Origin: Aquibaculum arenosum
GTDB taxonomy: Bacteria; Pseudomonadota; Alphaproteobacteria; Kiloniellales; DSM-21159
Length of the DNA stretch: 64,000 nt
Reading direction: 5' to 3'
Assembly (NCBI RefSeq): GCF_029222965.1
Contig: NZ_JARHUD010000003.1
Coordinates: forward strand, 248,001-312,000
A program made the translations under genes and the position numbers. Below, one piece after another: positions 31,687 through 47,811 of this stretch (positions are counted from its first letter, which is position 1; the number at the start of each line of letters is the position of its first letter). The notes beneath the pieces are model-generated. The model saw only the letters and a list, made by a program, of their open reading frames with translations. It was not told the DNA's origin and ran no database searches.

Positions 31687-32796
31687 TTAATAGACGACGA
31701 CGGAGCGGATCGACTTGCCGGCGTGCATCAGATCGAAGGCCTCGTTGATGCGATCCAGCGGCATGGTGTGGGTGATCATGTCGTCGATGTTGAGCTTACC
31801 CTCCATGTACCAGTCGACGATCTTCGGCACATCGGTGCGTCCACGGGCGCCGCCGAAGGCCGTGCCGCGCCAGGAGCGGCCGGTCACCAGCTGGAAGGGG
31901 CGGGTGGAGATTTCCTGCCCGGCGCCGGCGACACCGATGATGATCGATTCACCCCAGCCCTTGTGGCAGCACTCCAGCGCCTGGCGCATGGTCTGGGTGT
32001 TGCCGATGCACTCAAAGGAATAGTCGGCGCCACCCTTGGTAAGTTCCACCAGATGCGGCACGAGATCGCCCGCGACCTCCTTCGGATTTACGAAGTGGGT
32101 CATGCCGAACTTGCGGCCAAGTGCCTCGCGCGCGGGGTTGATGTCCACACCGACGATCATGTCAGCGCCCACCATGCGCGCGGCCTGGATGACGTTGAGG
32201 CCGATGCCGCCCAGGCCGAAGACCACCACGTTCGAACCCGGCTCGACCTTGGCGGTATTCACCACGGCGCCGACGCCGGTGGTGACACCGCAGCCGATGT
32301 AGCAGACCTTGTCGAAGGGCGCGTCCTCGCGGATCTTCGCCAGCGCGATCTCGGGCAGCACCGTGTAGTTGGAGAAGGTGGAGCAGCCCATGTAGTGCAG
32401 GATGGGCTTGCCGTTCAGAGAGAAGCGGCTGCTGCCGTCCGGCATCACGCCCTGGCCCTGGGTGGTGCGGATTGCCTGGCAGAGGTTGGTCTTGGGATTG
32501 AGGCAGTACTCGCACTCGCGGCATTCCGGCGTGTAGAGCGGAATCACGTGGTCGCCCGGCTTCAGGCTTTTCACCCCCGGGCCCACCTCGGCGACGACAC
32601 CGGCGCCCTCGTGGCCCAGGATCGCCGGAAACTGGCCTTCGGGGTCATCCCCGGAGAGGGTGAAGGCGTCCGTGTGGCAGATGCCAGTCGCCTTCACTTC
32701 GATCAAAACCTCGCCTTCCCTCGGTCCCTCGAGCTGCACCGTCTCGATGGAAAGGGGCTTGCCGGCCTCGAAGGCCACCGCTGCACGCACGTCCAT
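31687..32796 (-). CDS. frmA: S-(hydroxymethyl)glutathione dehydrogenase / class III alcohol dehydrogenase
   Basis: The 369-residue zinc MDR enzyme oxidises S-hydroxymethylglutathione, the adduct of formaldehyde and glutathione, with NAD. It has the catalytic zinc segment [27 protein letters not shown], the structural zinc cysteines in [17 protein letters not shown], and [18 protein letters not shown]. The start is the ATG at 32796 ([13 protein letters not shown]), preceded by AAGGAGGAG; in-frame sequence further upstream is not family-like. It forms an operon with fghA. A 116-base gap separates it from soeC upstream, enough for its own promoter. Confidence 0.97.
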
Positions 32797-32912
32797 GGGA
32801 TCTCTCCTCCTTGTCAAAGAGCGTGCTGCATCCTCTCCGCCGCCGCGACGCGGGGCAAGACCCGGATGAGACGATCCGGCATCAAAAGGCGTCAGGATGG
32901 TTTGGCGGCGGC

Positions 32913-33854
32913 TCAGGCCCGTTCGGCACCGTAGTAGAGTGTGACCACGTGCTGCGCCTCGGCGAAGAAGAGCCAGCGCTCCACCAGGGTCGCGGCCAGG
33001 GTGAAGGCCAGCGCGAGCAGCACACCGAACGCCCCGAGCGAGCCGGGTAGGACAGCCGTCAACAGCACGCAGAGCAGCGCCAGAGCCAGGCCAAAGGTTA
33101 TCAGCCGGCGGAGCTTCCCGGCGTGACGGCGGCCGATGCGGTAGCCCATCTCCTGCTGGACGAAGTTTTCGGCCGTGTGTGCGCCCTCCCACTGCCGAAC
33201 GCGGCCCAGGTGACCGAGACCGGTGGCCTTGCCCATGTCGAGATCAAGGGGCTCCTGGTCGATGGCGCGCCAGTAGAGCGTCTTGAGCAGCAAGGCGAGG
33301 ACCAATGTGCCACCGGCCAGAATCAAGTGACCGGGCTGCATCTGGCCGCCCAGCACCGCGAAGCCGAGCAACAGTGTGGCGCCGCTGGCGAGCGCGAAAG
33401 CCAGGTAGACCGGCACGACCAGCGGCTGGTGCCACTGGCGGATGGTGGCCAGGGAGGCATAGATCATGGCCGTGGCCACGACGGTGATCGCGCAGAGAAA
33501 GGCCGTAACTAGGCCGAGCACGCGCAGCAGCCCGCCGTCATGGTCGGTGATGGCGAGCCAGGCGAAGATCAGTGCCGGCGGGTAGGTGGCCAGCGCCAGC
33601 ACGCCTTCGCGCGACAGCCAGGAACTGCGCCACTGGCTGAGCGCCCGCCAGGCTCGCTCCGGATGGCCAAGGTGAAAGGTGGATGCGAGCAGCCCCCCGG
33701 TGATCAGCAGGAAAGCCAGGAGGAAGGCAGCGATAAGCGTGCCAGGGCCGGGCAGGCTCGTGGTCGTACCCGCCGTCAATCCCAAGAGGCCCAGGAGGCC
33801 ATAGCCCGCGCCACTGAGCGAGGTGAAGAGGATCACCGAATAGGCAGGATGCAT
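32913..33854 (-). CDS. soeC: Membrane anchor subunit of a DMSO-reductase-family enzyme (SoeC/DmsC type)
   Basis: The 313-residue protein is an integral membrane anchor with about eight hydrophobic helices and the DmsC/SoeC N-terminus [38 protein letters not shown] is a conserved loop of the family. It attaches the catalytic and iron-sulfur subunits to the inner membrane and passes electrons to or from the quinone pool. It lies 34 bases after the iron-sulfur subunit gene. The assignment to sulfite dehydrogenase rests mainly on the catalytic subunit and gene order; DMSO or thiosulfate reductase is the alternative. Confidence 0.82.
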
Positions 33855-33888
33855 GCTCTCTCCTCTGTGAAGGTCCCGCCGCGCCGGA

Positions 33889-34638
33889 TCAGCGGGACAG
33901 CACGCGGTCGGCCCAGCGGAAGAAGCGCTCGGTCAGGCCGTCGCCTTCCCCGGCCAGGGAAGCTAGGGAAGGGGGTGCAGCTGCGGCGTCTCTGCGTCGC
34001 GGCGGCAGGTATTTGTTGACCGGCTTGTAGCCCAGTTCCGGCAGCAGACCGTAGCCCTCGCGTTCGTCTACCAGACGGGAGACCGCGCTGTCGGGGTCGC
34101 CGAGATCGCCGAAGTGGCGCGCCCCGGTGGGGCAGGCCTTGACGCAGGCCGGCACCCGGTCCTCGGGCTGGAGGTTGTCGTTGTAGATGCGGTCGACGCA
34201 CAGCGTGCACTTCTTCATCACGCCCTGGTCCTGATCGTACTCCCGCGCGCCGTAGGGGCAGGCCCAGGAGCAGAGTTTGCAGCCGATGCAGGTGTCGGGG
34301 TCGACCAGCACAATGCCGTCCTCCGCCCGCTTATAGGAAGCGCCGGTGGGGCAGACCGTGACACAGGCGGCATCCTCGCAGTGCAGGCAGGAGCGCGGGA
34401 AATAGACGCCCTGAGCTTCGGCGCCTTCGCCAGCTTCGTAGCCATGCACCCGGTTGAGCCACACGCCCAGCGGATCGGCACCATGGGGATCGCGGTCGCT
34501 CAAGGGGGCGCTCATGCCCTGGTCGTTCCACTCCTTGCAGGAGACGGCGCAGGCCTGACAGCCGACGCAGGTGTCGAGATCGATGACGAGGCCGAGCTTC
34601 TTCTGCCCCGCTGCGCTGGTGTCGGGCAGACTGGTCAT
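33889..34638 (-). CDS. soeB: Four-cluster ferredoxin subunit (SoeB/DmsB type)
   Basis: The 249-residue protein has four cysteine groups for 4Fe-4S clusters: CVGCQACAVSC near residue 24, CLHCEDAACVTVCPTG, CIGCKLCSWACPYG, and CTLCVDRIYN with the late CVKACPTG. It relays electrons between the molybdenum subunit and the membrane anchor. The ATG at 34638 overlaps the soeA stop in an ATGA arrangement, so the subunits are translationally coupled. There is no Tat or Sec signal, consistent with a cytoplasm-facing complex. Confidence 0.88.
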   Translation of the reverse strand: MTSLPDTSAAGQKKLGLVIDLDTCVGCQACAVSCKEWNDQGMSAPLSDRDPHGADPLGVWLNRVHGYEAGEGAEAQGVYFPRSCLHCEDAACVTVCPTGASYKRAEDGIVLVDPDTCIGCKLCSWACPYGAREYDQDQGVMKKCTLCVDRIYNDNLQPEDRVPACVKACPTGARHFGDLGDPDSAVSRLVDEREGYGLLPELGYKPVNKYLPPRRRDAAAAPPSLASLAGEGDGLTERFFRWADRVLSR

Positions 34639-37520
34639 GCCGTCCCCCTGTCTGGCTTGTGGTTCGCCCCAGCAGGCCCCTGCCGCAGGCGCGAGCGATC
34701 CGCCGAGCCAGGCGGCTGCGGCAGAGTGGCAAACTGCGGCTGGCTTTGCGCGGCCGCGGCTTCCTCGGGGGACGCCCTGCTCAGCCGAACCCGCAGATCG
34801 TACCAGGCGGCCTGTCCGGTGATGGGGTCGCTGGCGGCGTAGCGATAGCCGCCTTCGCGCTCCGGCAGCAGCTCGCCGATCAGGTGATTGAGGAGGAAGC
34901 CCTTGCGCGCCTCGGGCGCGTCCGGCGCCAAATTCCAAGCGCCCGAGCGCTTGCCGATGGCGTTCCAGGTCCAGACCGTGTCCGGATTGACGCCCTCCAT
35001 CACCGCGATCTGCACCACGATGCGCCCGTGCGGGCTTTCCAGCGCCACCCAATCGCCATCGGCCAGTTCCTGATCTTCAGCGCGGGCCCGGGCCATGTAG
35101 AGGCGATTCCAGCCGTGGATTTGGCGCAGCCAGGCATTCTGCGAGCCCCAGGAGTGATACATCGCCATGGGGCGCTGGGTCACCGCATGCAGGGGATAGG
35201 CCGCAGCGTCGCCGATCGCCTCCTCCTCAAGCGGCTGATACCAGAAGGGCAGGGGGTCGAAGTAGCGCGTCAGGCGCGCGCGCTCGCGTTCAGGCGGGAG
35301 CAGGGGGCCATGCCCCTGTCCGGCGAGGCGGAAACGCTGCAAAGGCTCGCAGTAGAGGCGCAGGGTGATGGGCTCGGCTTTCGGCAGGAAGCCGTGGCTG
35401 ACCGCCCAGTCAAGGTAGGCCTGGTTGGCAAAGCGGTAGTAGCGTTCTTCCGGCGCCAGTTCGCTGCGCCAGAAGCAGCCCTGCTCGATATAGCGTTCGA
35501 GTTGACGGGGATGCGGCGTGCCCTTGCCCTTGGCTTCACCGTCCTCGCCCCGGAAACCGGCCAGTGGGCCGACGCCGGGCGCGCGCTCGTGATTGACGAT
35601 GTAGTCGGAATAGCCGCCGGGAAAGCGCGGCGTGCCGTCTTCGCGCGTCATGCCGGGCAGGCCGAGCCGTGCCCCCAGGTCGAGCAGCACGTCCTGGAAG
35701 GGGCGAACGTCCCGATCGGGCGCCACGACCGGCTGACGGATCGCGTCGGCGGCGCCTTCGGCGTCGGAAATCGGCCGGTCGAGCAGGGAGATGCAGTCCC
35801 AGCGCTCCAGATAGGTGGTGTCCGGCAGGATCAGGTCAGTGTAGGCGACCATCTCCGAGGCATAGGCGTCGGAATAGATGATCCGCGGGATGACGTAGTC
35901 GCCGCTGTCGGGATCAGTGGCGGTCAGGTGCGCGATGGTGTCCGGGACATTGACGGCCGAGTTCCAGCTCATGTTGGCCATGTAGAGGAAGAGCAGGTCG
36001 ATGCCGTAGGGATCGCGCTGCGCCGCATTGGCGATCACCCGCTGCATCAGCCCGTGGGCGGCCAGAGGCGCCTCCCAGGAGAAGGCCTTGTCGATGCGCT
36101 GCGGTTGCCCGTCGACGTCCACCAGCAGGTCCTCGGGGCCGGTGACGAAGCCGAGCGGCGGTCCGGGCAGCGGCTTGCCGGGCTCGACCTGCCCCGGCTT
36201 GCCCGCCGGCTTGATCCCTGGCGGCGGCGGCTTGGGGTAGGGCGGCTTGTAGAGGAAGCCGCCGGGCACATCGATGCTGCCGATCAGGAGCTGCAGGAGG
36301 TGGAGCAGGCGGCAGGTCTGGAAGCCGTTGGAGTGCGCCGAGATGCCGCGCATGGCATGCAGGGCCACCGGCCGCCCGCGCGTCTTCTCGTGCCGCCGGC
36401 CCTGGCTGTCGGTCCAGGGAATGTCGAGCTCGATCGCCTCCTCGAAGGCGGCCCGGGCGATCTCGGCGGCCAGGCGGCGAATGGTCTCCGCCGGCACGCT
36501 GCAGGCCTCGGCCACGCGTTCGGGGCTGTAGGCCTCGTCTAGAAAGCGCTCGACCAGCAACTGAAAGGAGGGGATGGCCTTGCGGCCATCCGCAAGCGTG
36601 CAGGCGCCATGGAGCGCCGCCTCGTCCCCCGCCTCCTTGGCCGGCAGCAGGGCGCCTGTACTGCGGTGGCGCACCAGGGGTTCGCCGGCCTCATTCCGGG
36701 CGATCAGGCCGTCCTCGGCGCCGCCGGGATCCTGGATCAGCAGCCAGGCGGCATCGCTGTGGCGCTGCAGGTAGTCGAGATCGACCTTGCCGGCGCGCAG
36801 CAGCTCATGAATCAAAGCGCCGACCAGCAGGCCGTCGGTGCCGGGGCGGATGCCCACCCACTCATCGGCGATGGCGGAATAGCCGCTGCGCACCGGATTG
36901 ATCGAAACCACCTTGGCGCCGCGGGCCTTCAGCTTGCCCAGGCCGATCTTGATGGGATTGGAGCTGTGGTCCTCGGCCACGCCGAAGAGCAGGAAGAGGC
37001 GCGTGTGCTCCCAGTCCGGCTCGCCGAACTCCCAGAAGGAGCCGCCAAAGGTGTAGAGGCCGGCGGCCGCCATGTTCACGGAGCAGAAACCGCCATGGGC
37101 GGCGAAGTTGGGGGTGCCGAACTGCTGCGCCCACCATCCGGTGAGCGCCTGCGACTGGTCGCGGCCGGTGAAGAAGGCCAGCTTGCGCGGGTCGCTGGCG
37201 CGGATCTCCGCCAGCCAGCCGCTGGCCGTGGCCAGGGCCTCGTCCCAGGAAATCGGCTCGAACTGGCCTGCGCCGCGCGGTCCGACCCGGCGCAGGGGCT
37301 GAGTCAGCCGCGCCGGCGAAAGATGCTGCTGGATGCCGGCCGAGCCCTTGCCGCAGAGGACGCCCTTGTTGACCGGATGGTCGCGGTTGCCCTCGATGTG
37401 CCGCACCTGACCGTCCTTCAGATGCACCTGGATGCCGCAGCGGCAGGCGCACATGTAGCAGGTGGTGGACTTCACCTCGTCCCAGCTTTTCAGCGAGGTC
37501 TCGACCCTCGGCTCCGCCAT
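34635..37520 (-). CDS. soeA: Molybdopterin catalytic subunit, probable sulfite dehydrogenase SoeA
   Basis: The 961-residue protein belongs to the DMSO reductase family. An N-terminal 4Fe-4S site is C21-X2-C24-X3-C28-X27-C56, followed by the molybdopterin-guanine-dinucleotide domains. There is no Tat signal (it starts MAEPRVETSLKSWDEVK), as expected for cytoplasmic SoeABC sulfite dehydrogenases of Allochromatium and Ruegeria but not for periplasmic thiosulfate or polysulfide reductases. Segments such as FGVAEDHSSNPIKIGLGKLK and IADEWVGIRPGTDGL resemble SoeA. The Mo ligand may be the Cys in HGGFCSVNM, which is inference. It would oxidise sulfite to sulfate and give electrons to quinone. The alternative is a cytoplasm-facing reductase of unknown substrate. 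Confidence 0.8.
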   Translation of the reverse strand: MAEPRVETSLKSWDEVKSTTCYMCACRCGIQVHLKDGQVRHIEGNRDHPVNKGVLCGKGSAGIQQHLSPARLTQPLRRVGPRGAGQFEPISWDEALATASGWLAEIRASDPRKLAFFTGRDQSQALTGWWAQQFGTPNFAAHGGFCSVNMAAAGLYTFGGSFWEFGEPDWEHTRLFLLFGVAEDHSSNPIKIGLGKLKARGAKVVSINPVRSGYSAIADEWVGIRPGTDGLLVGALIHELLRAGKVDLDYLQRHSDAAWLLIQDPGGAEDGLIARNEAGEPLVRHRSTGALLPAKEAGDEAALHGACTLADGRKAIPSFQLLVERFLDEAYSPERVAEACSVPAETIRRLAAEIARAAFEEAIELDIPWTDSQGRRHEKTRGRPVALHAMRGISAHSNGFQTCRLLHLLQLLIGSIDVPGGFLYKPPYPKPPPPGIKPAGKPGQVEPGKPLPGPPLGFVTGPEDLLVDVDGQPQRIDKAFSWEAPLAAHGLMQRVIANAAQRDPYGIDLLFLYMANMSWNSAVNVPDTIAHLTATDPDSGDYVIPRIIYSDAYASEMVAYTDLILPDTTYLERWDCISLLDRPISDAEGAADAIRQPVVAPDRDVRPFQDVLLDLGARLGLPGMTREDGTPRFPGGYSDYIVNHERAPGVGPLAGFRGEDGEAKGKGTPHPRQLERYIEQGCFWRSELAPEERYYRFANQAYLDWAVSHGFLPKAEPITLRLYCEPLQRFRLAGQGHGPLLPPERERARLTRYFDPLPFWYQPLEEEAIGDAAAYPLHAVTQRPMAMYHSWGSQNAWLRQIHGWNRLYMARARAEDQELADGDWVALESPHGRIVVQIAVMEGVNPDTVWTWNAIGKRSGAWNLAPDAPEARKGFLLNHLIGELLPEREGGYRYAASDPITGQAAWYDLRVRLSRASPEEAAAAQSQPQFATLPQPPGSADRSRLRQGPAGANHKPDRGTA

Positions 37521-37726: not shown

Positions 37727-38521
37727 TTAGAGGCCGGTCAGGTCATTCACAAGTTCGCGCAAGGCCATGCCTTCTCGCGCACCCAGCGCGTCGGCCAGGG
37801 GATTGGTGCGGCTTATGATGCCGTTGTCCAGGGCGGAGCGGGCGTCACCGATGCGCGCGCTGGCGGCGGCGACCGTGACAGCGGCAATGCCGCGCCCCTG
37901 CAGCGCCGGCAGGCGCGAGGCGCCCACTTCATCGGGACCGAGACCGGCGTCGTTGAAGACGGCGAGCTGGGCATCGGCCTTCAGCGCGTTGGCCGGGTCG
38001 CCGCCGAAAAGCGCGCCGTGAGAGCCGGTGATCACCACCTGGCCGGCATCCTCTGGTTGCACCAGTGCTGCGGAATCGATCAGCACCAGACGGCAGTGGC
38101 GACCCCCGACCACCTGGCGGGCTTCGCGCATGGGCGCGACCTCCAGCGTTACCGCCTCGGCCGCCTCCAACAAGGCGGCGGCCTCGGCACAGTCCTGCCC
38201 ACTTGCCACGCCACAAGCCCGGGCCTGAGCATTGGCCCGGGAGATGCGCCCGCGGTGCAGCATGTCCGCCGCCTCGCCGATACGCGCGCTGGCGTGATCG
38301 ACTGCGGCGGCAGCGATGCCCCTTTCCGCCAACCAGGCAAGGCCGGCGACCCCCGCCTCCTCCAGGCCGATGCCGGCATCATTGAAGATGACGGCCCGCA
38401 GCCCGGCCCGGGCCGCGAGATAGGCGGCATAGACGCCGCCGTGCGACCCGGTGACCAGGACGGCGCCCACCGCCTCGGGGCCGAGGCGGGTGACGGTATC
38501 GGCGAGGAGCGGTGAGGCCAT
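37727..38521 (-). CDS. Unrecognised protein of two tandem homologous domains
   Basis: I do not recognise this 264-residue protein. It consists of two copies of one domain of about 100 residues. Copy 1 has TGSHG (24-28), FNDAG (46-50), GIAA (68-71), SARIG (78-82) and GRISRAN (91-97). Copy 2 has TGSHG (165-169), FNDAG (189-193), GIAA (211-214), SARIG (221-225) and GIISRTN (234-240), offset by 141 to 143 residues throughout. The alternation of hydrophobic strands and helices suggests a Rossmann-like alpha/beta fold with a pseudo-twofold. No signal peptide or membrane segment is seen. It lies five bases after the ThDP enzyme gene and ends the IclR/E1/TRAP operon, so it probably acts in the same pathway. 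Confidence 0.8.
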   Translation of the reverse strand: MASPLLADTVTRLGPEAVGAVLVTGSHGGVYAAYLAARAGLRAVIFNDAGIGLEEAGVAGLAWLAERGIAAAAVDHASARIGEAADMLHRGRISRANAQARACGVASGQDCAEAAALLEAAEAVTLEVAPMREARQVVGGRHCRLVLIDSAALVQPEDAGQVVITGSHGALFGGDPANALKADAQLAVFNDAGLGPDEVGASRLPALQGRGIAAVTVAAASARIGDARSALDNGIISRTNPLADALGAREGMALRELVNDLTGL

Positions 38522-38526
38522 GACGA

Positions 38527-40266
38527 TCAGGCGACCCGGTCGCCCTTGCGCACCTTGGCGGCGCGGTTGTCGACGCCCGGCAGCATCTTGGCCGGGTCGC
38601 GGGTGACGACCACGTCGAGAATGGTGGGCCGACCCTTCTCCGCAAGCGCCGTCTTCAGGGCGTCCTGCAGCGCTTCCGGATCCTCCACGCGGATGCCCTT
38701 GCAGCCCAGTGCTTCGGCCACCTTGGCGTAGTCGGTTTCCGCCAGGTCGCTCGACTGATAGGCGCCCTCGCCGTACATCAGATGCTGCAGTGCCTTCACA
38801 TAGCCTGAGGCCGCGTTGTTGACGACGATGATGGTGACCGCGAGGCCCAGGCGACGGGCGGTTTCCAGCTCGCCCAGCACCATGTTGAAGCCGCCGTCGC
38901 CGGTCAGCGCCACCACCGGACGCTCGGGTGCTGCCAGCTTGCAGCCCATGGCGCCTGGCAGGCCGTAACCGATGGATGCAAAGCCACGGTCGGGCACGAA
39001 GCCGCGGCCGGGCTGCTTGCTGTCATACAGGAGACCGCCCCAGTGGGCTGCGAAGCCGCCATCGGCAACCAGCAGCGCATCGGCGGGCAGAACCTTGTTG
39101 AGCTCGCCCAGCAGACGGCCCATGGAAACCGGCGTTTCGGTGCTTTCCAGCTTCTCGCGCACCTTTTCGCGCCAGGCGGCCATCTGCTCCACCACCTGGG
39201 TGAGCCAGGGTTCGCGGGCCTCACGGCCACGGCCGCCAATCGCCTGGGCCAGGGCCTCGATTCCGGCCTTGGCATCGCCCCAGAGCGGGACCGTCGGCGC
39301 GTAGCAGCGGCCGATCTCCTCGGCCCAGACCTCGAGGTGGATCAGGGTCTTGCCCGGCGGCGGCACGGTGTAGCGCTTGGTGGCGATTTCGCCCAGCTTG
39401 CAGCCGACGACCAGGAGGCAGTCGCTTTCTTCGATCAGCTTGTTGGCGATTCGATCATAGCGGCCGAAGAGGCCGGCGCTGACCGGGCTGCTGCAAGCCA
39501 CTGCACCCTTGCCACTCATGGTGTGGGCGACCGGGATGCCGGCAGCCTCGGCGAAGGCCTGGAGGCTCTCGGCGGCCTGGGAGAGGTGGACACCACCGCC
39601 GGCCAGGATCAGCGGGCGCTTGGCTTCGATCAGCAGCGCGGCCGCCTTGGCAAGGTCCTCGGCATCAGGGCGGGCTCGCAGCGCCGGGGCCGACTGCCAG
39701 CGGGCGTCGGCGCTCAGCTCCTCGCCCTCGAAGGGGTGGGTATCGTGGCAAACGTCTTCCGGCAGGTCGATGACCACCGGGCCCGGCCGGCCGCTGGTGG
39801 CAACCTGGAAGGCGCGGCGCACCAGTTCGGGCAGGCGCTCGATCTGCTCGACCCGGATGAGTTCCTTGCAGGCCGGGCGCAGGATCTCGGTCTGGCGCGA
39901 TTCCTGGGTCATGTTCTTCCAGGAGTGCGCGCGGTGGCTGTCGCCGATGATCACCACCAGAGGGCTACCGGCATTCAGTGCTTCCACCAGGCCGGTGACC
40001 AGGTTGGTGGCACCCGGGCCCAGCGTCGCGTCGCAGACACCCACCCGGCCGCTAACCTTGGCATAGGCGTCGGCCATGAAGACGCCGCAGCGCTCGTCGT
40101 TGATCAGCGAGTGGGCCAGGCCGAGTCGCCGGGCGGCATCGTAGAAGGGCAGCAGTTGAAAACCGCCCATGCCGAACATGGGGCCCACGCCGTGAGCCTG
40201 CAGCATGCGGGCGAGAACCTCGCCCCCAGTCATCTCGTTATCGCGCGCAGCGACGCCGTCAGTCAT
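38527..40266 (-). CDS. Acetolactate-synthase-like ThDP-dependent enzyme
   Basis: The 579-residue protein has the three-domain fold of the acetolactate synthase/benzoylformate decarboxylase family. The catalytic Glu region is SLINDERCGVFMADAYAKVS, the middle domain has PLILAGGGVHLSQAAE, and the ThDP-binding GDG-N motif is ALTGDGGFNMVLGELETARR followed by VTIIVVNNAAS. It is not a clear match for acetolactate synthase, oxalyl-CoA decarboxylase or sulfoacetaldehyde acetyltransferase (Xsc), so the substrate is unassigned. It probably acts on an alpha-keto or alpha-hydroxyketo acid. It lies 24 bases after dctM and five before the duplicated-domain protein in one operon. Confidence 0.88.
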   Translation of the reverse strand: MTDGVAARDNEMTGGEVLARMLQAHGVGPMFGMGGFQLLPFYDAARRLGLAHSLINDERCGVFMADAYAKVSGRVGVCDATLGPGATNLVTGLVEALNAGSPLVVIIGDSHRAHSWKNMTQESRQTEILRPACKELIRVEQIERLPELVRRAFQVATSGRPGPVVIDLPEDVCHDTHPFEGEELSADARWQSAPALRARPDAEDLAKAAALLIEAKRPLILAGGGVHLSQAAESLQAFAEAAGIPVAHTMSGKGAVACSSPVSAGLFGRYDRIANKLIEESDCLLVVGCKLGEIATKRYTVPPPGKTLIHLEVWAEEIGRCYAPTVPLWGDAKAGIEALAQAIGGRGREAREPWLTQVVEQMAAWREKVREKLESTETPVSMGRLLGELNKVLPADALLVADGGFAAHWGGLLYDSKQPGRGFVPDRGFASIGYGLPGAMGCKLAAPERPVVALTGDGGFNMVLGELETARRLGLAVTIIVVNNAASGYVKALQHLMYGEGAYQSSDLAETDYAKVAEALGCKGIRVEDPEALQDALKTALAEKGRPTILDVVVTRDPAKMLPGVDNRAAKVRKGDRVA

Positions 40267-40290: not shown

Positions 40291-41592
40291 TCAGGTGATG
40301 CGGTAGCCGAGGACGCGCGGCAGCCAGAGCGCGATCTCGGGGAAGGCAATGATCAGACCCAGGGCCGTGATCATCGACAGCAGGATCCAGCCGACCCAGC
40401 GGAAGGTGCTCTCTATGGGCACCGAGGCCACTTTGGCCGTGACCATGAGATTGACCGCAACGGGCGGCGTGAACTGCCCGATGGCGATGTTCATGGCCAT
40501 GAGAATGCCGAACCAGACAAAGGACCACTCGAAGGCGGTGACGATGGGTATCAGCAGCGGCAGGGTGATCAGATAGATGGACACGCCGTCCAGCACCATG
40601 CCGGCCAGCAACAGCAGACCCATGACCAGCAGCAGGATGATCCACTGGCTGTCGCTGACGGTGAGCAGCGCCTCGGCCGCCAAGCGGAAGGCGCCCATGG
40701 TGGAGCCGGCCCAGGCGAAAATTCCGGCCAGCGAGACGATCAGCATCAAGACCGCGGAAATCTTCGCGCTTTCCACCAGCACCCGGTAGATGTCCCGCCA
40801 GCCCATGGTGCGGTAAAGCACCGTTCCTACCAGCAGGCCGTAGAAGACGGCGACCACGGCGGTTTCCGTCGGCGTGAAGAGGCCGCTGCGCAGGCCACCG
40901 AGGATGATGACCGGGGCCATCAGGCCGGGCAGGGCGTCCCAGAGGCTGGGCCAGAAGGGCGGCCGCTCAGCCACTTCCGCTTCGCCGAAGTTGTTGCGTC
41001 GGCTGAGCATTACGGTGGGGATGGCAACGGCCAGCCCGACCAGCAGGCCCGGGATGACGCCGGCTGCGAAGAGCGCGCGCAGGTCGGTGCCCGGCACCAT
41101 CACCGCATAAACGATCAGCGCGATGGAAGGTGGAATGACGATGGCGGTGGAGGCCGAAGCGGCGATGACGCTGGCGGAGAAGGGCTTGGGATAGCCCGCG
41201 CGCAGCATGGAGGGAATCATCACCGTGGCGACGGCGGCGGCGTCAGCCGGTCCGGAGCCCGACATGCCGCCCATGATGAGGCAGACCAGGATCGCCACCA
41301 GGGCCAGGCCGCCGCGGCGCGGCCCGATGCAGGCCTGGGCGAAGCCGACCAGCCGCCCGGCCACGCCCGAGCGCTCGAAGATCATGCCGGTCAGGATGAA
41401 CAGCGGGATGGCGATCAGCGGATACTTGGCGATGCCGTTGTAGGTGTTGGTGCCCAAGGTCCCCAGGGCGAAAACATCGAGACCAAGGAGAATGCCGACG
41501 GCGCCGCCAACCCCCAGAGCCACCGCAATGGGGGTGCCGATCAGCATCAGGGCCGCAAAGACCAGCAGCAGGGCGAGATTGGCTTCGAACAT
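40291..41592 (-). CDS. dctM: TRAP transporter large permease (DctM)
   Basis: The 433-residue protein is the 12-helix permease of a TRAP transporter. Typical segments are MFEANLALLLVFAALMLIGT, FILTGMIFERSGVAGRLVGF, GGMSGSGPADAAAVATVMIP and MVLDGVSIYLITLPLLIPI near the end. It imports an organic anion using the sodium gradient together with DctQ and DctP. The start ATG at 41592 is four bases after the dctQ stop; longer in-frame sequence is not family-like. The substrate is not predictable from this subunit. Confidence 0.95.
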   Translation of the reverse strand: MFEANLALLLVFAALMLIGTPIAVALGVGGAVGILLGLDVFALGTLGTNTYNGIAKYPLIAIPLFILTGMIFERSGVAGRLVGFAQACIGPRRGGLALVAILVCLIMGGMSGSGPADAAAVATVMIPSMLRAGYPKPFSASVIAASASTAIVIPPSIALIVYAVMVPGTDLRALFAAGVIPGLLVGLAVAIPTVMLSRRNNFGEAEVAERPPFWPSLWDALPGLMAPVIILGGLRSGLFTPTETAVVAVFYGLLVGTVLYRTMGWRDIYRVLVESAKISAVLMLIVSLAGIFAWAGSTMGAFRLAAEALLTVSDSQWIILLLVMGLLLLAGMVLDGVSIYLITLPLLIPIVTAFEWSFVWFGILMAMNIAIGQFTPPVAVNLMVTAKVASVPIESTFRWVGWILLSMITALGLIIAFPEIALWLPRVLGYRIT

Positions 41593-41596
41593 GGTG

Positions 41597-42139
41597 TTAG
41601 TCCGCTTCCGGCTGATAGCGCTGCGGTCCCGCGCGCAGCCAGGCCCAGGCGCGGCCAAAGAGGCGCAGCAGAATTGCGAGGGTCAGAACCGGAAGCCACA
41701 CGGTGTAGATCCAGGTGGGATATCCCAGGCCCGGCGAAGTCTCGCCCCAGTACCACTCGTCCCAGGTCACCTGGGCGCTGTAGTAGAGAATGAGGGAGAA
41801 GAGGCCGGTGGTGGCCAGCAGCGTGATGACCTCGCAAACCCACTGGATCGGCGCGGTCAGGCGCTTCAGGAAGAAGGATATGCGAATATGCTGGCCGGTC
41901 GCGAAGGCGGCAGACGAGCCGACGAAGGTCATGAATACCAGCAGGAAGACCGAAAACTCTTCGGTGAAGGCAAAAGAGACGTTGGTGGCATAGCGTACCA
42001 CCACATTGCCGAAGGAAATCAGGCAGATCGCGGCCATGGCCGCGGCGCCCAAGCCCTCCTCGATCTTGATCGGGATACGCGTGTGCGCGGCCGGGTCGGC
42101 TGGCTGCGGTTCCGTTTCAGGGGGAATCTGGTCGCTCAT
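41597..42139 (-). CDS. dctQ: TRAP transporter small permease (DctQ)
   Basis: The 180-residue protein has the four transmembrane helices of DctQ subunits, with the conserved FTEEFSVFLLVFMTFVGSS segment in helix 2 and the loop GQHIRISFFLKRL after it. It pairs with DctM in the inner membrane. The ATG at 42139 (MSDQIPPE) is preferred over an in-frame start at 42160. A 69-base spacer with a perfect 30-bp palindrome separates it from dctP upstream. Confidence 0.93.
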   Translation of the reverse strand: MSDQIPPETEPQPADPAAHTRIPIKIEEGLGAAAMAAICLISFGNVVVRYATNVSFAFTEEFSVFLLVFMTFVGSSAAFATGQHIRISFFLKRLTAPIQWVCEVITLLATTGLFSLILYYSAQVTWDEWYWGETSPGLGYPTWIYTVWLPVLTLAILLRLFGRAWAWLRAGPQRYQPEAD

Positions 42140-42166
42140 GAGGCAGCTCGCTTTGGCCACAGAAAC

Positions 42167-42208: not shown

Positions 42209-43234
42209 TTACCGATTGGCGACGGACTCTTCGGCCATCTCGACGAGGTCGGCGCCGATGCGCTCACGCCACTCCTCGTAGACCGGACGGGTGGCCTCGA
42301 CGAAGGCCTCACGCTCTTCCTCGGTCAGCTCGACGATGGTCACGCCTTTTTCGCGGATATCATCGATCAGGCTTTGGTCGTCGCCCACCAGGCCCTTGCG
42401 GGCCACGTCAATACCGTGTGCGCCGGCGTCAACCGCAGCCTGGCGTACGATCGCCTGATCTTCCTCGTTGAAGGAGTCCCAGACGTCCTGGTTCACGGCG
42501 AAGATCAGCGGGTCGGCAACATAGTGCCAGAGGGTGACGTAACTCTGCCCCAGCTCATGCATGTTCAGCACATCATACATGCTCATGGGGTTTTCCTGGC
42601 CGTCAACAGCCCCAGTGGTGAGTGCAGGCTGCGCATCGGCCCAGCTCATCTGCGTCGGGTTGGCGCCGAGCGCGGTGAACATGTCGTTGTAGATCGGCGA
42701 GCCGACCACACGCATCTTCAGGCCTTCGAGATCCTCAGGCTTGCGAACCTCGTGCTGAGAGTTCGTGAGTTCGCGGAAACCATTCTCGGCCCAACCCAGC
42801 GGCACTACGCCGTTTTCCTGGACAAGCTCAAAGATGCGCTCGCCCACCGGACCCCCGGTCAGGGCGTCCAAGGCGTCGTAGTCCGGCATCAGGAAGGGCA
42901 TGGAGAAGATGTTCATCTCCACGATTTGCGGCGACCAGTTGATGGTGGAGCCGACTGCCATGTCAATGATGCCACGGCGCAGTGCGGTGAACTCGCGAGT
43001 CTGATCGCCCTGCACGAGCTGTGCGCCGGGATAGACCTGCATCTTGATGCGGCCCTCGGTGCGCTCTTCCACGAGCTCGGCCCAGGTCTCGGCGGCAATG
43101 CCCCAGGGGAAGGGGGCGGGCACCACGGTGGAGATGCGGTACTCGTCCTTGTAATCCTGGGCCATCAGGGGCCCGGCCTGCAGGCCGGCCACAGCGACGA
43201 CGGCTGCAGCCGCCAGATGTTTAAAACGCAGCAT
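42209..43234 (-). CDS. dctP: TRAP transporter substrate-binding protein (DctP)
   Basis: The 341-residue periplasmic protein has a signal peptide (FKHLAAAAVVAVAGLQAGPL, then MAQD) and a DctP-type fold. Recognisable parts are YPGAQLVQGDQTREFTALRR, MAVGSTINWSP, GLKMRVVGSPIYNDMFTALG (with the substrate carboxylate Arg) and TGAVDGQENPMSMYDVLNMHE. TRAP binding proteins of this kind usually bind small carboxylates, sulfonates or similar anions. Hairpins lie on both sides of the gene in the operon, at 43261-43290 and 42167-42196. A good GAGGAA-type ribosome site precedes the ATG at 43234. Confidence 0.95.
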   Translation of the reverse strand: MLRFKHLAAAAVVAVAGLQAGPLMAQDYKDEYRISTVVPAPFPWGIAAETWAELVEERTEGRIKMQVYPGAQLVQGDQTREFTALRRGIIDMAVGSTINWSPQIVEMNIFSMPFLMPDYDALDALTGGPVGERIFELVQENGVVPLGWAENGFRELTNSQHEVRKPEDLEGLKMRVVGSPIYNDMFTALGANPTQMSWADAQPALTTGAVDGQENPMSMYDVLNMHELGQSYVTLWHYVADPLIFAVNQDVWDSFNEEDQAIVRQAAVDAGAHGIDVARKGLVGDDQSLIDDIREKGVTIVELTEEEREAFVEATRPVYEEWRERIGADLVEMAEESVANR

Positions 43235-43292: not shown

Positions 43293-44276
43293 TCACGCGG
43301 CCGCCGGGGTAATCTGCTCCCGGGCTGCCGCAACGATAGCCTCCGCCGTGACCCGAACCCGGGCCTCCAGCGGTGGCGCATAGGACACCGGCACGCGCGG
43401 TGCGCCCAGACGCTTCACGGGTGCCGCCAGGCGCTTGTGTAGCGCCTCGGCTACGCTCGCCGCAATCTCCGCGCCGAATCCGGCGACGGAAACCGCTTCC
43501 TGAACCACCAACAGGCGGCCGGTCTTCTCGACTGAGGCCAGAACCCGGTCGCGATCCCAGGGCCAGAGCGTGCGCAGGTCGATTACCTCGGCCTCGATGC
43601 CTTCGGCAGACAGCGTCTCGGCCGCCTCCAGGCAGGCCCAGCGCTGCGCCGACCAGGTGACCAGTGTCACGTCGCGGCCCTCGCGCACCGTCTCGGCCAC
43701 ACCGAGCGGCGTCAGATGCTCGTCTTCGGGCACCTCGCCTTCCAGTGTCCAGAGGTTCTTGTGTTCGAGATAGACCACGGGGTCGTCGCAGCGGATGGCG
43801 GATTTCAGCAGACCCAGGTTGTCCGCCGGCGTCGCGGGGGCGACCACCACCAGACCGGGGATGTGCACATACCAGGCTTCCAGCGACTGCGAGTGCTGGG
43901 CGGCGGAAGAGCGCCACATGCCCATGGGTTGACGCACCACCAAGGGTACCTTGGTCTGGCCGCCAAACATATAACGAGCCTTGGCCGCCTGGTTGACCAG
44001 TTCGTCCACGGCACAAAGCGCAAAGTCAGAAAAGCGCATCTCCACCACCGGCCGGGTGCCGCTCATGGCGGCGCCGACAGACGCGCCCATGATGCACGCT
44101 TCCGAGATCGGGGCGTCGGAGATACGTGCCGGGCCGAACTCGTCGGCCAGGCTCTTGTACTGGCCGAAGACCCCGCCGCGGCCCAGATCCTCGCCCACGG
44201 CCCAGACCGATGGGTCGCGCCGCATTTCTTCGGCCAGGGCACGCCTGCCGGCTTCGAGATAAGTGATTGCGGCCAT
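43293..44276 (-). CDS. Pyruvate/acetoin dehydrogenase-type E1 beta subunit
   Basis: The 327-residue protein is a transketolase-like E1 beta subunit. It begins ITYLEAGRRALAEEMRRDPS and has the VWAVGEDLGRGGVFGQYKSL segment, RISDAPISEACIMGASVGAA, and the C-terminal transketolase domain with LRTLWPWDRDRVLASVEKTG and VQEAVSVAGFGAEIAASV. It should form an alpha2beta2 ThDP enzyme with the alpha subunit, whose gene overlaps it by one base at an ATGA junction. No E2 lipoyl or E3 gene is in the window, so it either uses subunits encoded elsewhere or works without them. Substrate candidates are acetoin or a 2-oxo acid. Confidence 0.9.
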   Translation of the reverse strand: MAAITYLEAGRRALAEEMRRDPSVWAVGEDLGRGGVFGQYKSLADEFGPARISDAPISEACIMGASVGAAMSGTRPVVEMRFSDFALCAVDELVNQAAKARYMFGGQTKVPLVVRQPMGMWRSSAAQHSQSLEAWYVHIPGLVVVAPATPADNLGLLKSAIRCDDPVVYLEHKNLWTLEGEVPEDEHLTPLGVAETVREGRDVTLVTWSAQRWACLEAAETLSAEGIEAEVIDLRTLWPWDRDRVLASVEKTGRLLVVQEAVSVAGFGAEIAASVAEALHKRLAAPVKRLGAPRVPVSYAPPLEARVRVTAEAIVAAAREQITPAAA

Positions 44277-45292
44277 CAGTATGCCCTCTCCCGCGGGTCG
44301 CCCATATCCTGTACGTCTTCGAAGGCCCTGGCCTCTGCAGGCCAAGGGCTATCCTTCGCGCTCTGGCAGATCTCTTCCATGTCCTGGCGCACTTTTGCAG
44401 CGATCGCATCCAGTTCATCGCTGCCACTGCCACCGTCCTGCAGCAGGGCGGCAACGCGCGCGATCGGATCGGCATCGCGCCACTGTGCCACCTCTTCCGC
44501 GGGGCGATAGGCTGCGGGGTCGACGGCGGTGTGACCGGTCATGCGGTAGGTGCGGCAATGCAGCAGCCGCGGCCCGCCACCGGCGCGGATGGCGGCGATG
44601 GCGTCGCGGGTGGCGCTCTCCAGTGCCAGCAGATCGTTGCCGTCCAGGGTTTCCGCCGGAATGTCCAGGGCTTCCGCACGTGCAGCGGCGCCCGGACCTG
44701 CGGTCATGCTGCTGGTGCGGGTGGTCGCAGCAAAGCCGTTGTCCTCGCAGACAAAGAGCACCGGCAGCTCGAAGACCTTGGCCCAGTTCAGCCCCTCCAG
44801 GAAGGGGCCGCGGTTGATTGCGCCGTCGCCGAACAGGCAGGCGACAATGCGGTCTTCCCCGCGCAGCTTGATGGCATGGGCGGCGCCGGCAGCGATGGGA
44901 ATGTTGGCTGAAACCACGCCATTGGCGCCCAACATACCGACCTCGAAGTCGGCGATGTGCATGGAGCCGCCCTTGCCGCCGCAGGTGCCGCCCTCGCGCC
45001 CGAAGAGCTCGCGCATCATGGCCAGTGCGTCGGCGCCTTTGGCGAGCGTGTGCCCGTGCCCGCGGTGGGTGGACAGCATCAGGTCGTCCCGGCGCAACTG
45101 GGCGCAGACTCCGGCCGCCACGGCCTCCTGGCCGATGGAGGGATGGATGGCGCCCAGAACATAGCCTTCCTTCTGGGCCTCGACGGCCAACTCCTCAAAG
45201 GCCCTGATCCGCAGCATCAGTTCGTAGAGGCGCAGCAGGTGCGGCCGGTCCAGGTTGCTGTGCCGTTGCGGCGCAGCGGGGGCAGGGGTCAT
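44276..45292 (-). CDS. Pyruvate/acetoin dehydrogenase-type E1 alpha subunit
   Basis: The 338-residue protein carries the ThDP-binding motif of E1 alpha subunits: CLFGDGAINRGPFLEGLNWA with VLFVCEDNGFAAT as the Mg-binding end. GGKGGSMHIADFEVGMLGAN and ANIPIAAGAAHAIKLRGED are typical of the acetoin/pyruvate dehydrogenase E1 alpha family, and STHRGHGHTLAKGAD carries the conserved His. The start overlaps the IclR stop by four bases and its stop overlaps the E1 beta start, so regulator and both subunits are translationally coupled. Confidence 0.9.
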   Translation of the reverse strand: MTPAPAAPQRHSNLDRPHLLRLYELMLRIRAFEELAVEAQKEGYVLGAIHPSIGQEAVAAGVCAQLRRDDLMLSTHRGHGHTLAKGADALAMMRELFGREGGTCGGKGGSMHIADFEVGMLGANGVVSANIPIAAGAAHAIKLRGEDRIVACLFGDGAINRGPFLEGLNWAKVFELPVLFVCEDNGFAATTRTSSMTAGPGAAARAEALDIPAETLDGNDLLALESATRDAIAAIRAGGGPRLLHCRTYRMTGHTAVDPAAYRPAEEVAQWRDADPIARVAALLQDGGSGSDELDAIAAKVRQDMEEICQSAKDSPWPAEARAFEDVQDMGDPRERAY

Positions 45293-46095
45293 GCCTTATC
45301 GCTCCTTTCGGATAGTTCGCGGGATTGCAGCAGGTCGCCCAGGCTCTCGGCTTCCCGTGTCAGGCGCCGGACGAGGTCGACGATGCGCGTCGGGGTCATG
45401 CGTTCACGGATGGCGGCTATGGACAGCGCGGCCTCGACCTGACCTTCGGAGCCGAACACGGGAACGGCCACCGCGGCCATGGCGCTGACGATGCGCCCGT
45501 CGTTGAGCGCGTGGCCGCTTTTGCGGCTTTGTTCGATCATGGCGCGCAGCGCCGCTGCCTCGAATCCGGAATAGGCAGCGCGGCTTGCCTCATTGCTGGT
45601 GAGGACGCGTTCGATCTCAGCATCCGGCTGAAAGGCCAGCAGTGCCAGGCTGCCCGCGCCAACACCCAGCGGGCGACGGTCGCCCACCGTCAGCGTCAGG
45701 GTGCGGATGGGGAAGGCGCCGGTGCAGCGGTCAATGCAAAGGGCTTCGTCGCCGTCGCGAATGGACAGGAAGACCGTGTCCTCGGTCTCGGCCGCCAGCC
45801 GCAGCAGGGCCGGGCGCGCCAATTCAGTGATCTGGAAGCGGCGCGCCGCACCGCCAAGCGCATAGAGGCCGTAGCCCAGGCGATAGCGCTTGCTTTCGTC
45901 GCAACGGTCCGCGAAGCCGACTTCCACCAGTGCGGTGAGCAGGCGATGCACGGTGGCCTTGCCCAAGCCGCTGCAGGTGGCAACGTCGGACAATCGGCAA
46001 CCAGCCGGCGCGCCCTCGCCCAGGCAGCGCAGAATCGAGGCTGCCCGATCGATGGTCTTGACCGTCGAGGTCTCTTCCGATGCCTGGGTCACCAT
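45289..46095 (-). CDS. IclR family transcriptional regulator
   Basis: The 268-residue protein has the N-terminal winged helix of IclR regulators (VKTIDRAASILRCLGEG, then CSGLGKATVHRLLTALVEVG and GYGLYALGG) and the C-terminal effector domain (ELARPALLRLAAETEDTVFL, then GRIVSAMAAVAVPVFG). It is the first gene of the leftward operon and is coupled to the E1 alpha gene, so it is probably a local regulator responding to the transported substrate. A promoter with an inverted repeat lies upstream at 46154-46205. Confidence 0.94.
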   Translation of the reverse strand: MVTQASEETSTVKTIDRAASILRCLGEGAPAGCRLSDVATCSGLGKATVHRLLTALVEVGFADRCDESKRYRLGYGLYALGGAARRFQITELARPALLRLAAETEDTVFLSIRDGDEALCIDRCTGAFPIRTLTLTVGDRRPLGVGAGSLALLAFQPDAEIERVLTSNEASRAAYSGFEAAALRAMIEQSRKSGHALNDGRIVSAMAAVAVPVFGSEGQVEAALSIAAIRERMTPTRIVDLVRRLTREAESLGDLLQSRELSERSDKA

Positions 46096-46311: not shown

Positions 46312-46935
46312 GTGACAGTTCTGCAGGACGCAGACGCCATTGCGAACGATCGGGTCATTGAAGCCGGCGCCCGCCTGGGGGAGAACTTCCGTCCGCGTGC
46401 CACGAGGTTTCTCTTTCTGCGCCATGGGCGCACCAGCGCCAATCACCGGGGCATCATCCAGGGGCACAAGAACGTGCCGCTTGACGAGGTGGGGCGAGCC
46501 CAGGCCCGGGCTGCCGCCGGAGAACTGTGTGCCTCGGCCCTTCGCCCGAAGCGTATCATCGCCAGCGATCTGTCCCGCGCCGCGGAGACCGCCCGGATTG
46601 TTGCCGCGGCCCTGGATCAGCGGGTGGGGGCCTATGATCGCGGTCTGCGCGAACGCAGCTTCGGCCCCATCGAAGGCACCAGCGGGCGGGGCCTGCTGTG
46701 GAGTGGCGACCCGGAAGGGGCGGAGCCGATTGCGGCTTTCGTTGCACGCTGCGCAAAGGCCTTGCAGCGCCATCTTGCGGAGGAAACGGTGCTGATCGTT
46801 GCCCATGGCGGGGTGCTGCGCGCGACGGCGGCGCTGTTGCGACTTCCCCTGACGGAGGTTGACCGCGCCAACGCCGTGCCGCTGCTCTTCCGGAACGAGG
46901 GCGGCTCCTGGAGCCTGGAACGCCTGCGCGCCTGA
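46312..46935 (+). CDS. Histidine phosphatase family protein
   Basis: The 207-residue protein is a phosphoglycerate-mutase-like phosphatase. FLFLRHGRTSANHRGIIQGH carries the catalytic RHG motif, followed by PLDEVGRAQARAAAGEL, IIASDLSRAAETARIV, LRERSFGPIEG with the acid-base Glu, and IVAHGGVLRATAALL with the second His. GTG at 46312 is preferred because AAGGAAG lies seven bases upstream; ATG at 46291 would add seven residues. The substrate is unknown (sugar phosphate or nucleotide derivative). It is divergent from the IclR operon and 91 bases before the HAD gene. Confidence 0.85.
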   Translation: MTVLQDADAIANDRVIEAGARLGENFRPRATRFLFLRHGRTSANHRGIIQGHKNVPLDEVGRAQARAAAGELCASALRPKRIIASDLSRAAETARIVAAALDQRVGAYDRGLRERSFGPIEGTSGRGLLWSGDPEGAEPIAAFVARCAKALQRHLAEETVLIVAHGGVLRATAALLRLPLTEVDRANAVPLLFRNEGGSWSLERLRA

Positions 46936-47026
46936 GCCGTCGGGGCAGAGCCCGTGCAGAGCGCTGCTGCAGTTCCCGAGGGATGGCGTTAGGCTTCGCC
47001 GGAGAACAGGAAGAGGGGGCGAGGCT

Positions 47027-47779
47027 GTGAAACAGGGATACTCGAAGCCGAAGGCGCTGCTGTTCGACGTGTTCGGCACCCTGGTGGATTGGCGCGGCAG
47101 CCTTATCCGGCAGCTCAGAGCCTTTGGCGAAGCTCGTGGGCTGGATCAGGTCGACTGGCCTGGGTTGGCGGATGCCTGGCGCGGCCGTTATGCCCCCTCC
47201 ATGGACGAGGTGCGCAGCGGTCGGCGCGCCTGGACCGTGCTGGATGATCTGCACCGGGAGTCTCTGCTTGCCCTGCTGCCGAAGTTTGGACTCGAGCAGC
47301 GTCTCGAGGAGGAGGAGATCGAGGGGCTGGTGCGCGGCTGGCATCGCCTGGACCCCTGGCCAGATGTGTCCGGCGGTCTGGCCCGTCTGCATGAGCGCTT
47401 TCTGCTGGCGCCGCTGTCGAACGGAAATGTGGCACTTATGGCCAATCTGAAACGCCACGCCAAGCTGCCCTGGGACTGCATCCTGGGCGCGGAACTGGCG
47501 CGTCACTACAAGCCGGATCCTGAGGTCTATCTCACAGCCATGGCGCTGCTGCGGCTGGCACCGCAGGAGGTCATGATGGTGGCTGCCCACAACGACGATC
47601 TCGCTCAGGCGCAAGCGCTGGGGATGCAAACAGCCTTTGTTCCGCGGCCCACAGAACATGGCCCGAACCAGACCACGGACCTTGCTGCCGATGGCGCATG
47701 GGATTTCGTCGTGGCCTCCACGGAGGAGTTGGCGGACAGGCTTTGCGATAATGGCGAGGTGGACTTGCTCCGAGGGTGA
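47027..47779 (+). CDS. HAD-family hydrolase, haloacid dehalogenase type II-like
   Basis: The 250-residue protein resembles 2-haloacid dehalogenases. Motif I is LLFDVFGTLVDWRG with the nucleophilic Asp, motif II is APLSNGN, motif III is HYKPDPEVYLTA with Lys, and motif IV is VAAHNDDLAQAQALGMQTAF. Type II dehalogenases replace a C2 halogen by hydroxyl in short haloacids such as 2-chloropropionate. Many homologues act as phosphatases, so the reaction is not certain. GTG at 47027 is used because the family core starts 10 residues later. The next gene, a tartrate/malate-type dehydrogenase, begins 32 bases after its stop. Confidence 0.87.
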   Translation: MKQGYSKPKALLFDVFGTLVDWRGSLIRQLRAFGEARGLDQVDWPGLADAWRGRYAPSMDEVRSGRRAWTVLDDLHRESLLALLPKFGLEQRLEEEEIEGLVRGWHRLDPWPDVSGGLARLHERFLLAPLSNGNVALMANLKRHAKLPWDCILGAELARHYKPDPEVYLTAMALLRLAPQEVMMVAAHNDDLAQAQALGMQTAFVPRPTEHGPNQTTDLAADGAWDFVVASTEELADRLCDNGEVDLLRG

Positions 47780-47811
47780 GCAGTTTCAGCGGGCGAACAG
47801 AAGGAACAGGC

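Follow-up and report, generated by a model that had tools for sequence, protein, structure and literature searches.

The protein encoded at 37727-38521 (minus strand) of the window, the whole 64,000-nucleotide stretch of Aquibaculum arenosum DNA analysed here, is best regarded as a tandem version of a fold of which little is known, and its functional partners stand out with unusual clarity. Its two halves are copies of one DUF1805-like domain, and its gene co-occurs almost perfectly with those of two ThDP enzymes encoded in the same operon. It is tentatively proposed, as a possibility rather than a probability, that the protein is an enzyme for 2-hydroxy-2-alkyl-3-oxo acids (an isomerase, racemase or decarboxylase) working in a ThDP module.

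The duplicated protein and its operon

The open reading frame extends on the minus strand from an ATG at 38521 to a stop at 37727-37729, exactly where the initial annotation had placed the gene, and its product has 264 aa. The focal gene is the last in a run of eight minus-strand genes, in the order IclR regulator, E1 alpha, E1 beta, three TRAP genes, ALS-like ThDP enzyme and focal gene:

37727..38521, minus strand: focal gene, tandem-duplicated, two DUF1805-like domains, 264 aa (from the ORF, translation, repeat statistics and fold)
38527..40266, minus strand: ThDP enzyme of the ALS-like superfamily, 579 aa, separate subfamily, 5 bp upstream of the focal gene
40291..41658, minus strand: TRAP large permease, true start possibly further in (dctM TIGR00786 above cut-off)
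41597..42160, minus strand: TRAP small permease (YiaM-like, below cut-off)
42209..43234, minus strand: TRAP (DctP) solute-binding protein, inner ATG as start (nearest solved relative 4p8b, 59% identity)
43293..44276, minus strand: E1 beta of a 2-oxoacid/acetoin-dehydrogenase-type ThDP enzyme, inner ATG as start
44276..45292, minus strand: E1 alpha subunit (PF00676)
45289..46095, minus strand: IclR-family regulator (best NCBIfam match BhcR, below cut-off)

No gene for an E2 was recognised among these. The best match of the IclR regulator, BhcR, is the regulator of the beta-hydroxyaspartate cycle and was obtained with 115 bits against a cut-off of 350, which hints at a small 2-oxo acid as effector. 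The next minus-strand gene, for a molybdopterin oxidoreductase, starts 206 bp beyond the focal gene. The downstream stretch 31687-37520 (minus strand) encodes this oxidoreductase of 961 aa, whose matches to models of thiosulfate reductase, DMSO reductase and formate dehydrogenase fell far short of the cut-offs, together with a DsrO/NrfC/DmsB-like 4Fe-4S protein (also below cut-offs), a protein with no NCBIfam match at E ≤ 1e-30 and an S-(hydroxymethyl)glutathione dehydrogenase. In the region upstream of the operon, two divergently oriented plus-strand genes (46859-48876) code for a type II haloacid dehalogenase and a tartrate dehydrogenase, both above their NCBIfam cut-offs.

The initial annotation had described a tandem duplication with five shared motifs at an offset of 141-143 residues, and this was confirmed. 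Over 111 aligned columns, residues 5-113 and 146-256 share 47 identities (42%, z = 23 against shuffles), with a half-versus-half local alignment score of 196, compared with a mean of 37.3, an s.d. of 6.8 and a maximum of 78 in 2000 shuffles. Profile-versus-profile comparison of the halves with hhalign gave a probability of 100% and an E value of 9.7e-42, and together with the shuffle statistics this shows that the repeat is not due to chance. The TGSHG motif (24-28/165-169) recurs at an offset of 141, and FNDAG (46-50/189-193), GIAA (68-71/211-214), SARIG (78-82/221-225) and G-R/I-I-S-R-x-N (91-97/234-240) recur at an offset of 143. The repeats and four of their motifs, with the conservation of selected residues, are located as follows:

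38144..38521, minus strand: repeat 1, residues 1-126, boundary chosen for analysis (half-to-half alignment)
37730..38143, minus strand: repeat 2, residues 127-264, the half superposing on TA1206 (1qw2)
38438..38452, minus strand: repeat 1 TGSHG (24-28), S26 118/118, H27 115/118
38372..38386, minus strand: repeat 1 FNDAG (46-50), D48 112/118
38276..38290, minus strand: repeat 1 SARIG (78-82), R80 98/118
38231..38251, minus strand: repeat 1 GRISRAN (91-97), G91 118/118, N97 117/118
38015..38029, minus strand: repeat 2 TGSHG (165-169), S167 117/118, H168 117/118
37943..37957, minus strand: repeat 2 FNDAG (189-193), D191 118/118
37847..37861, minus strand: repeat 2 SARIG (221-225), R223 111/118, G225 118/118
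37802..37822, minus strand: repeat 2 GIISRTN (234-240), G234 118/118, N240 117/118

These counts, as well as the tree mentioned below, are based on 118 rows including the window protein, after two rows of fewer than 200 residues (L016 and L141) had been dropped from 120. Repeat 2 was found to be the stricter copy, with D191 in 118 and H168 in 117 of the 118 rows, versus 112 for D48 and 115 for H27. The departures at D48 and H27 include two haloarchaeal rows, with Asn for D48, as well as those of Aminobacter and Methylovirgula. The Rhodococcus row L016, one of the two dropped from the count, presents SYIG for SHGG in repeat 1 and AGHTG in repeat 2. The Aminobacter homologue (L015, 11785-12738), with an apparent export signal at its start and repeat 1 motifs lacking the His and the Asp, would represent a divergent and possibly periplasmic form.

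Family assignment

No Pfam or NCBIfam family covers the focal protein, the best E value in the NCBIfam search being only 0.08, and Foldseek retrieved no solved relative at E ≤ 0.001 for its AlphaFold2 model (81-row alignment, mean pLDDT 96.8, pTM 0.92). To this extent the domain is unrecognised, as first described, although a DUF1805/TA1206 fold is now suggested. DUF1805 (PF08827, COG3377), with TA1206, provided both the best structural match and weak sequence matches. Among the 998 chains aligned by VIA-align from Foldseek's top 1000, TA1206 (1qw2) ranked first with Z = 8.3 (rmsd 2.9, 94/102 residues) and the next row reached 5.2, values that refer to the whole model and not to single repeats and that compare with a typical best Z of 7-8. 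PMC9425974 lists 1QW2 in a table as the structure for DUF1805. At the sequence level, the focal protein scored 24.3 bits (E = 3.7e-5) versus a gathering cut-off of 29.5, with its best HMM stretch confined to positions 34-62 of a model of about 64. Within the alignment, DUF1805 was matched by 72 of the 81 rows at E ≤ 0.1 and a second Pfam family, IMS, by 62; in the focal protein itself the two matches are confined to short pieces towards the C-terminal end of a repeat. When the halves were compared with two DUF1805 proteins by hhalign, half 1 gave 84% over 38 columns and half 2 only 20% over 27 columns. Whereas DUF1805 is one short domain, the focal protein consists of two fused copies of about 130 residues, with motifs of its own (GSHGG, NDAG, SARIGD and GxISxxN). 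Sequence and predicted structure point to the same family, each only moderately, and for this reason the protein is named DUF1805-like and is not counted as a member.

The focal protein might also be an ordinary tandem DUF1805 protein with a role unrelated to the chemistry of the operon. The structural match to TA1206 and the large share of rows matching DUF1805 are in its favour, but this explanation is improbable, as the score lies below the Pfam gathering score, the sequence match covers the C-terminal part of the domain only, few genomes of the phylum (2 of 299) have DUF1805 above the cut-off and the genomic link is to catabolic modules. No function for DUF1805 is described in the literature passages searched, and the fold would gain its first biochemical setting from the partnership described below.

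A relationship to Y-family polymerases (IMS, PF00817) was considered and rejected. The match of 24.5 bits passes the cut-off of 23.2, but it is limited to one segment of about 50 residues (residues 87-136, 38114-38263, on positions 31-77 of a model of 148). The polymerase rows covered 26-31 columns in Foldseek, with one of 71, and 47-61 residues in VIA-align. What is common to both is the short GxISxxNxxAxxxGV, and the likeness is put down to chance or convergence. The same segment passes the IMS cut-off, so that automatic annotation may mislabel members of the family. The sole Pfam match above a cut-off is thus restricted to one short segment, and no characterised family of unrelated role was matched with confidence in a way that would contradict the initial annotation. 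Sequence searches of solved structures with the focal protein retrieved mostly the polymerase segment and noise. The esterase-like UPF0227/YqiA was likewise discarded, its matches being sub-threshold and found in 3 of the 81 rows. In the Pfam search with the focal protein, acetolactate decarboxylase (PF03306) did not appear even at E values as high as 10.

Distribution and co-occurrence with the ThDP enzymes

The two ThDP neighbours belong to the superfamilies of acetolactate synthase and of acetoin dehydrogenase E1. The ALS-like enzyme scored 401.6 bits with the acetolactate synthase equivalog TIGR00118, versus a cut-off of 538, and fell below the cut-offs of all 25 NCBIfam models shown. In its subfamily the catalytic Glu58 is present in 70 of 70 rows, and Ile294 (69/70) and Leu493 (70/70) occupy the aligned positions that are taken here to be the Arg and Trp sites for the second substrate of acetolactate synthase. 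Judged by its sequence, the enzyme is not an acetolactate synthase, and the replacement of the Arg and Trp argues against simple reverse acetolactate synthesis.

The distribution of the focal family was evaluated by a pattern scan of 84,980 species, which yielded 320 relatives; the best 80 of these were mostly from Alphaproteobacteria, with some from other Proteobacteria, a Poribacterium and an SAR324 genome. The family was also found in 13 plasmid records (haloarchaea, Rhizobium, Methylovirgula, Ponticoccus, Aminobacter and Rhodococcus), annotated as a hypothetical protein in 12 and without annotation in one. No phage match was obtained for the focal protein and no plasmid match at E ≤ 1e-100 for the ALS-like subfamily, and the data thus do not support phages or plasmids as the home of the module. 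Among 289 genomes sampled evenly from the class of the window, its own genome included, 30 carry the focal family, about one tenth. With the partnership described below, a hypothetical protein of this frequency becomes a named gap in a defined three-part module.

In the same sample the ALS-like subfamily was found in 25 genomes, with one copy each and 61-72% identity outside the window's own genome, where the five other ThDP paralogues found are at most 38% identical to the operon enzyme. The marker thresholds were the analyst's choice; this set did not change when the threshold was loosened from E = 1e-150 to 1e-115, indicating a sharply bounded subfamily. Both markers were present in 23 of the 289 genomes, spread over 15 families, with the focal gene alone in 7 and the ThDP enzyme alone in 2 (Fisher p = 9e-26, a value that overstates the evidence because related genomes are not independent). 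The E1-beta subfamily was detected in 22 genomes at E ≤ 1e-125 and in 23 at E ≤ 1e-110, the latter being exactly the genomes with both the focal gene and the ThDP subfamily. In 18 of the 23 genomes no more than 10 kb separate the ThDP gene from the focal gene; in the other five the ThDP gene is on another contig (G100, G136, G138 and G250) or about 1.09 Mb away (G252), so that a hitch-hiking cluster alone is an insufficient explanation. That three genes should coincide in this way across 15 families is hard to explain other than by a functional tie.

The neighbourhoods gave a similar picture. At the best 80 of the 320 loci, which favour close relatives of the window and many of which lie on short contigs, so that neighbour counts are minima, the ALS-like gene was near the focal gene in 57 (53 at ≥750 bits), E1 beta in 39 and either in 59. 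The class sample gave 17 (16 at ≥750 bits), 17 and 20, respectively, of 31 loci from 28 genomes, G000 itself and the G255 fragment being left out. In a quick tree of the 118 rows, the ThDP context was scattered over most of the family, the Poribacterium included, and at the 8 plasmid loci neither ThDP enzyme was found nearby. The tie to the ThDP enzyme suggested in the initial annotation is therefore upheld by both the survey of neighbourhoods and the co-occurrence across genomes, but the ThDP operon is not the only setting of the family, since OiaK/OiaX-like genes are its neighbours in haloarchaea and in a small number of proteobacteria.

Such strict co-occurrence with both ThDP enzymes could also be expected of a non-catalytic partner, that is, a ligand-sensing or scaffolding subunit that binds either of the ThDP enzymes, or what they produce, and has a regulatory effect. 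The focal protein falls in no known catalytic family of Pfam or NCBIfam, and no enzyme activity is named for DUF1805 in those parts of the literature that were searched, which is consistent with this role. The role is nevertheless rather unlikely, since the family also occurs beside RuBisCO-like proteins, kinases, aldolases and SDRs, the ThDP subfamily is missing from 7 of the 30 focal genomes, and polar residues typical of catalysis (S, H, D, R and N) are the ones conserved. For the preferred reading as an enzyme, the near-invariance of the polar motifs in both copies is a point in favour, whereas those 7 genomes count against it too, as do the 2 of 25 ThDP genomes without the focal gene and the 8 plasmid loci with neither ThDP enzyme nearby.

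Substrate clues and proposed function

The first clue to a substrate comes from the TRAP binding protein of the operon, which shares 59% identity with 4p8b, a protein of Ralstonia eutropha H16 (H16_A1328); the predicted structure of the operon's binding protein was poor (pLDDT 56.7) and was used only to name this nearest solved relative. The ligand of 4p8b is presumably 2-acetolactate. According to a review (PMC5812351), a large structural survey of TRAP proteins had 2-acetolactate among its newly found ligands. Binding proteins of the 4p8b type adjoin E1 alpha/beta in Azospirillum, and E1 alpha/beta together with a lipoyl protein in Thermus; in the Azospirillum and Thermus stretches read, no annotated ALS-like or focal gene stands beside the transporter and the E1 genes. 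Near the focal gene, a TRAP binding protein of the window's type (≥300 bits) was found at only 13 of the 80 and 5 of the 31 loci, and so the transported substrate either varies or is not the shared factor.

The second clue comes from haloarchaea, with 5 matches, where the focal gene is directly followed on plasmids by genes for a RuBisCO-like protein and a DUF1537-type kinase in all four of the loci read. For the pair at L014 and a similar pair at L030, the best NCBIfam matches were OiaX (3-oxo-isoapionate-4-phosphate decarboxylase) and OiaK (3-oxo-isoapionate kinase). These relatives remain below the NCBIfam cut-offs (344 and 441 versus 700; 425 and 516 versus 700), and their substrate may thus be another 3-oxo acid. 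In proteobacteria, OiaX-like genes stand no further than about 10 kb from the focal gene at L030, L033 and L097; L030 unites OiaK-like, OiaX-like, ALS-like subfamily and focal genes, and L033 has an OiaX-like gene and the ALS-like subfamily with the focal gene. The 3-oxo-isoapionate pathway of OiaK and OiaX reportedly goes back to Carter et al. in 2018. Acetolactate and 3-oxo-isoapionate are both taken here to be 2-hydroxy-3-oxobutanoates with a (substituted) methyl group on C2, that is, 2-hydroxy-2-alkyl-3-oxo acids. A ketol (acyloin) shift converts acids of this class into 3-hydroxy-2-oxo isomers and back, and a shift of this kind also racemises them, while their decarboxylation yields acyloins; acetoin-dehydrogenase-type E1 alpha/beta and ALS-like enzymes can in principle cleave their C-C bond. 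The 3-oxo-isoapionate pathway is mentioned in PMC6302742, and among the D-apiose cluster enzymes listed in the section of PMC11747546 consulted there is no focal-like protein. The literature searched yielded nothing on this operon type.

It is from the relative of the TRAP protein, 4p8b, and from the OiaK/OiaX-type neighbours that we infer the substrate class; a catalytic and soluble nature of the focal protein is inferred as well. In the proposed mechanism, the two fused DUF1805-like domains would form a soluble intramolecular pseudo-dimer, acting in a catabolic module whose fixed members would be the focal protein, E1 alpha/beta and the ALS-like ThDP enzyme that is not an acetolactate synthase. 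Ser167-His168, Asp191, Arg223 and Asn240, with their repeat 1 counterparts, would line one or two putative sites for a 2-hydroxy-2-alkyl-3-oxo acid, either 2-acetolactate-like or, in a hydroxylated version, 3-oxo-isoapionate. The particular reaction is a guess: the protein may interconvert isomers or enantiomers, as a ketol/acyloin isomerase or racemase, or may decarboxylate the acid to an acyloin, after which the ThDP enzymes would cleave the C-C bond. Canonical acetolactate decarboxylase (PF03306) has no match in the genome of the window, and this, taken with the acyloin-acid chemistry, led to the proposal of a cofactor-free step carried out by the focal protein; most likely it would be a cofactor-free or simple metal-dependent enzyme. 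The substrate class proposed is directly testable.

A more general role is doubtful but deserves consideration, namely that of a generic isomerase, epimerase or hydrolase of small hydroxy or oxo acids (of the tetronate or aldehyde type) with no special link to 2-hydroxy-2-alkyl-3-oxo acids. The diversity of the family's catabolic neighbours, among them L-threonate-dehydrogenase-like proteins, class II and HpaI-type aldolases, SDRs and TRAP/TTT transporters, speaks for it, as does the BhcR-like regulator of the operon. The tight co-occurrence of three genes, however, points to one dominant substrate class, and the kinase and RuBisCO-like neighbours that were tested had OiaK and OiaX as their best named matches.

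Returning to the reading as an enzyme for 2-hydroxy-2-alkyl-3-oxo acids, its most far-reaching form, which is unlikely enough to be put forward with reserve, is that the protein founds an enzyme family of its own, as a ketol isomerase/racemase that is pseudo-symmetric and needs no cofactor. It would then give the DUF1805 fold a first function and supply the missing step in a pathway not yet described, where the ThDP pair splits acetolactate-type acids into two central metabolites. If true, cleavage of such acids by the ThDP pair would put to catabolic use a chemistry otherwise met chiefly in the synthesis of branched-chain amino acids. On a Thermus plasmid (L145, 8705-8953), a stand-alone biotin/lipoyl protein is encoded between E1 beta and a TRAP binding protein related to that of the window, which suggests an acyl-transferring E1 that operates without a standard E2.
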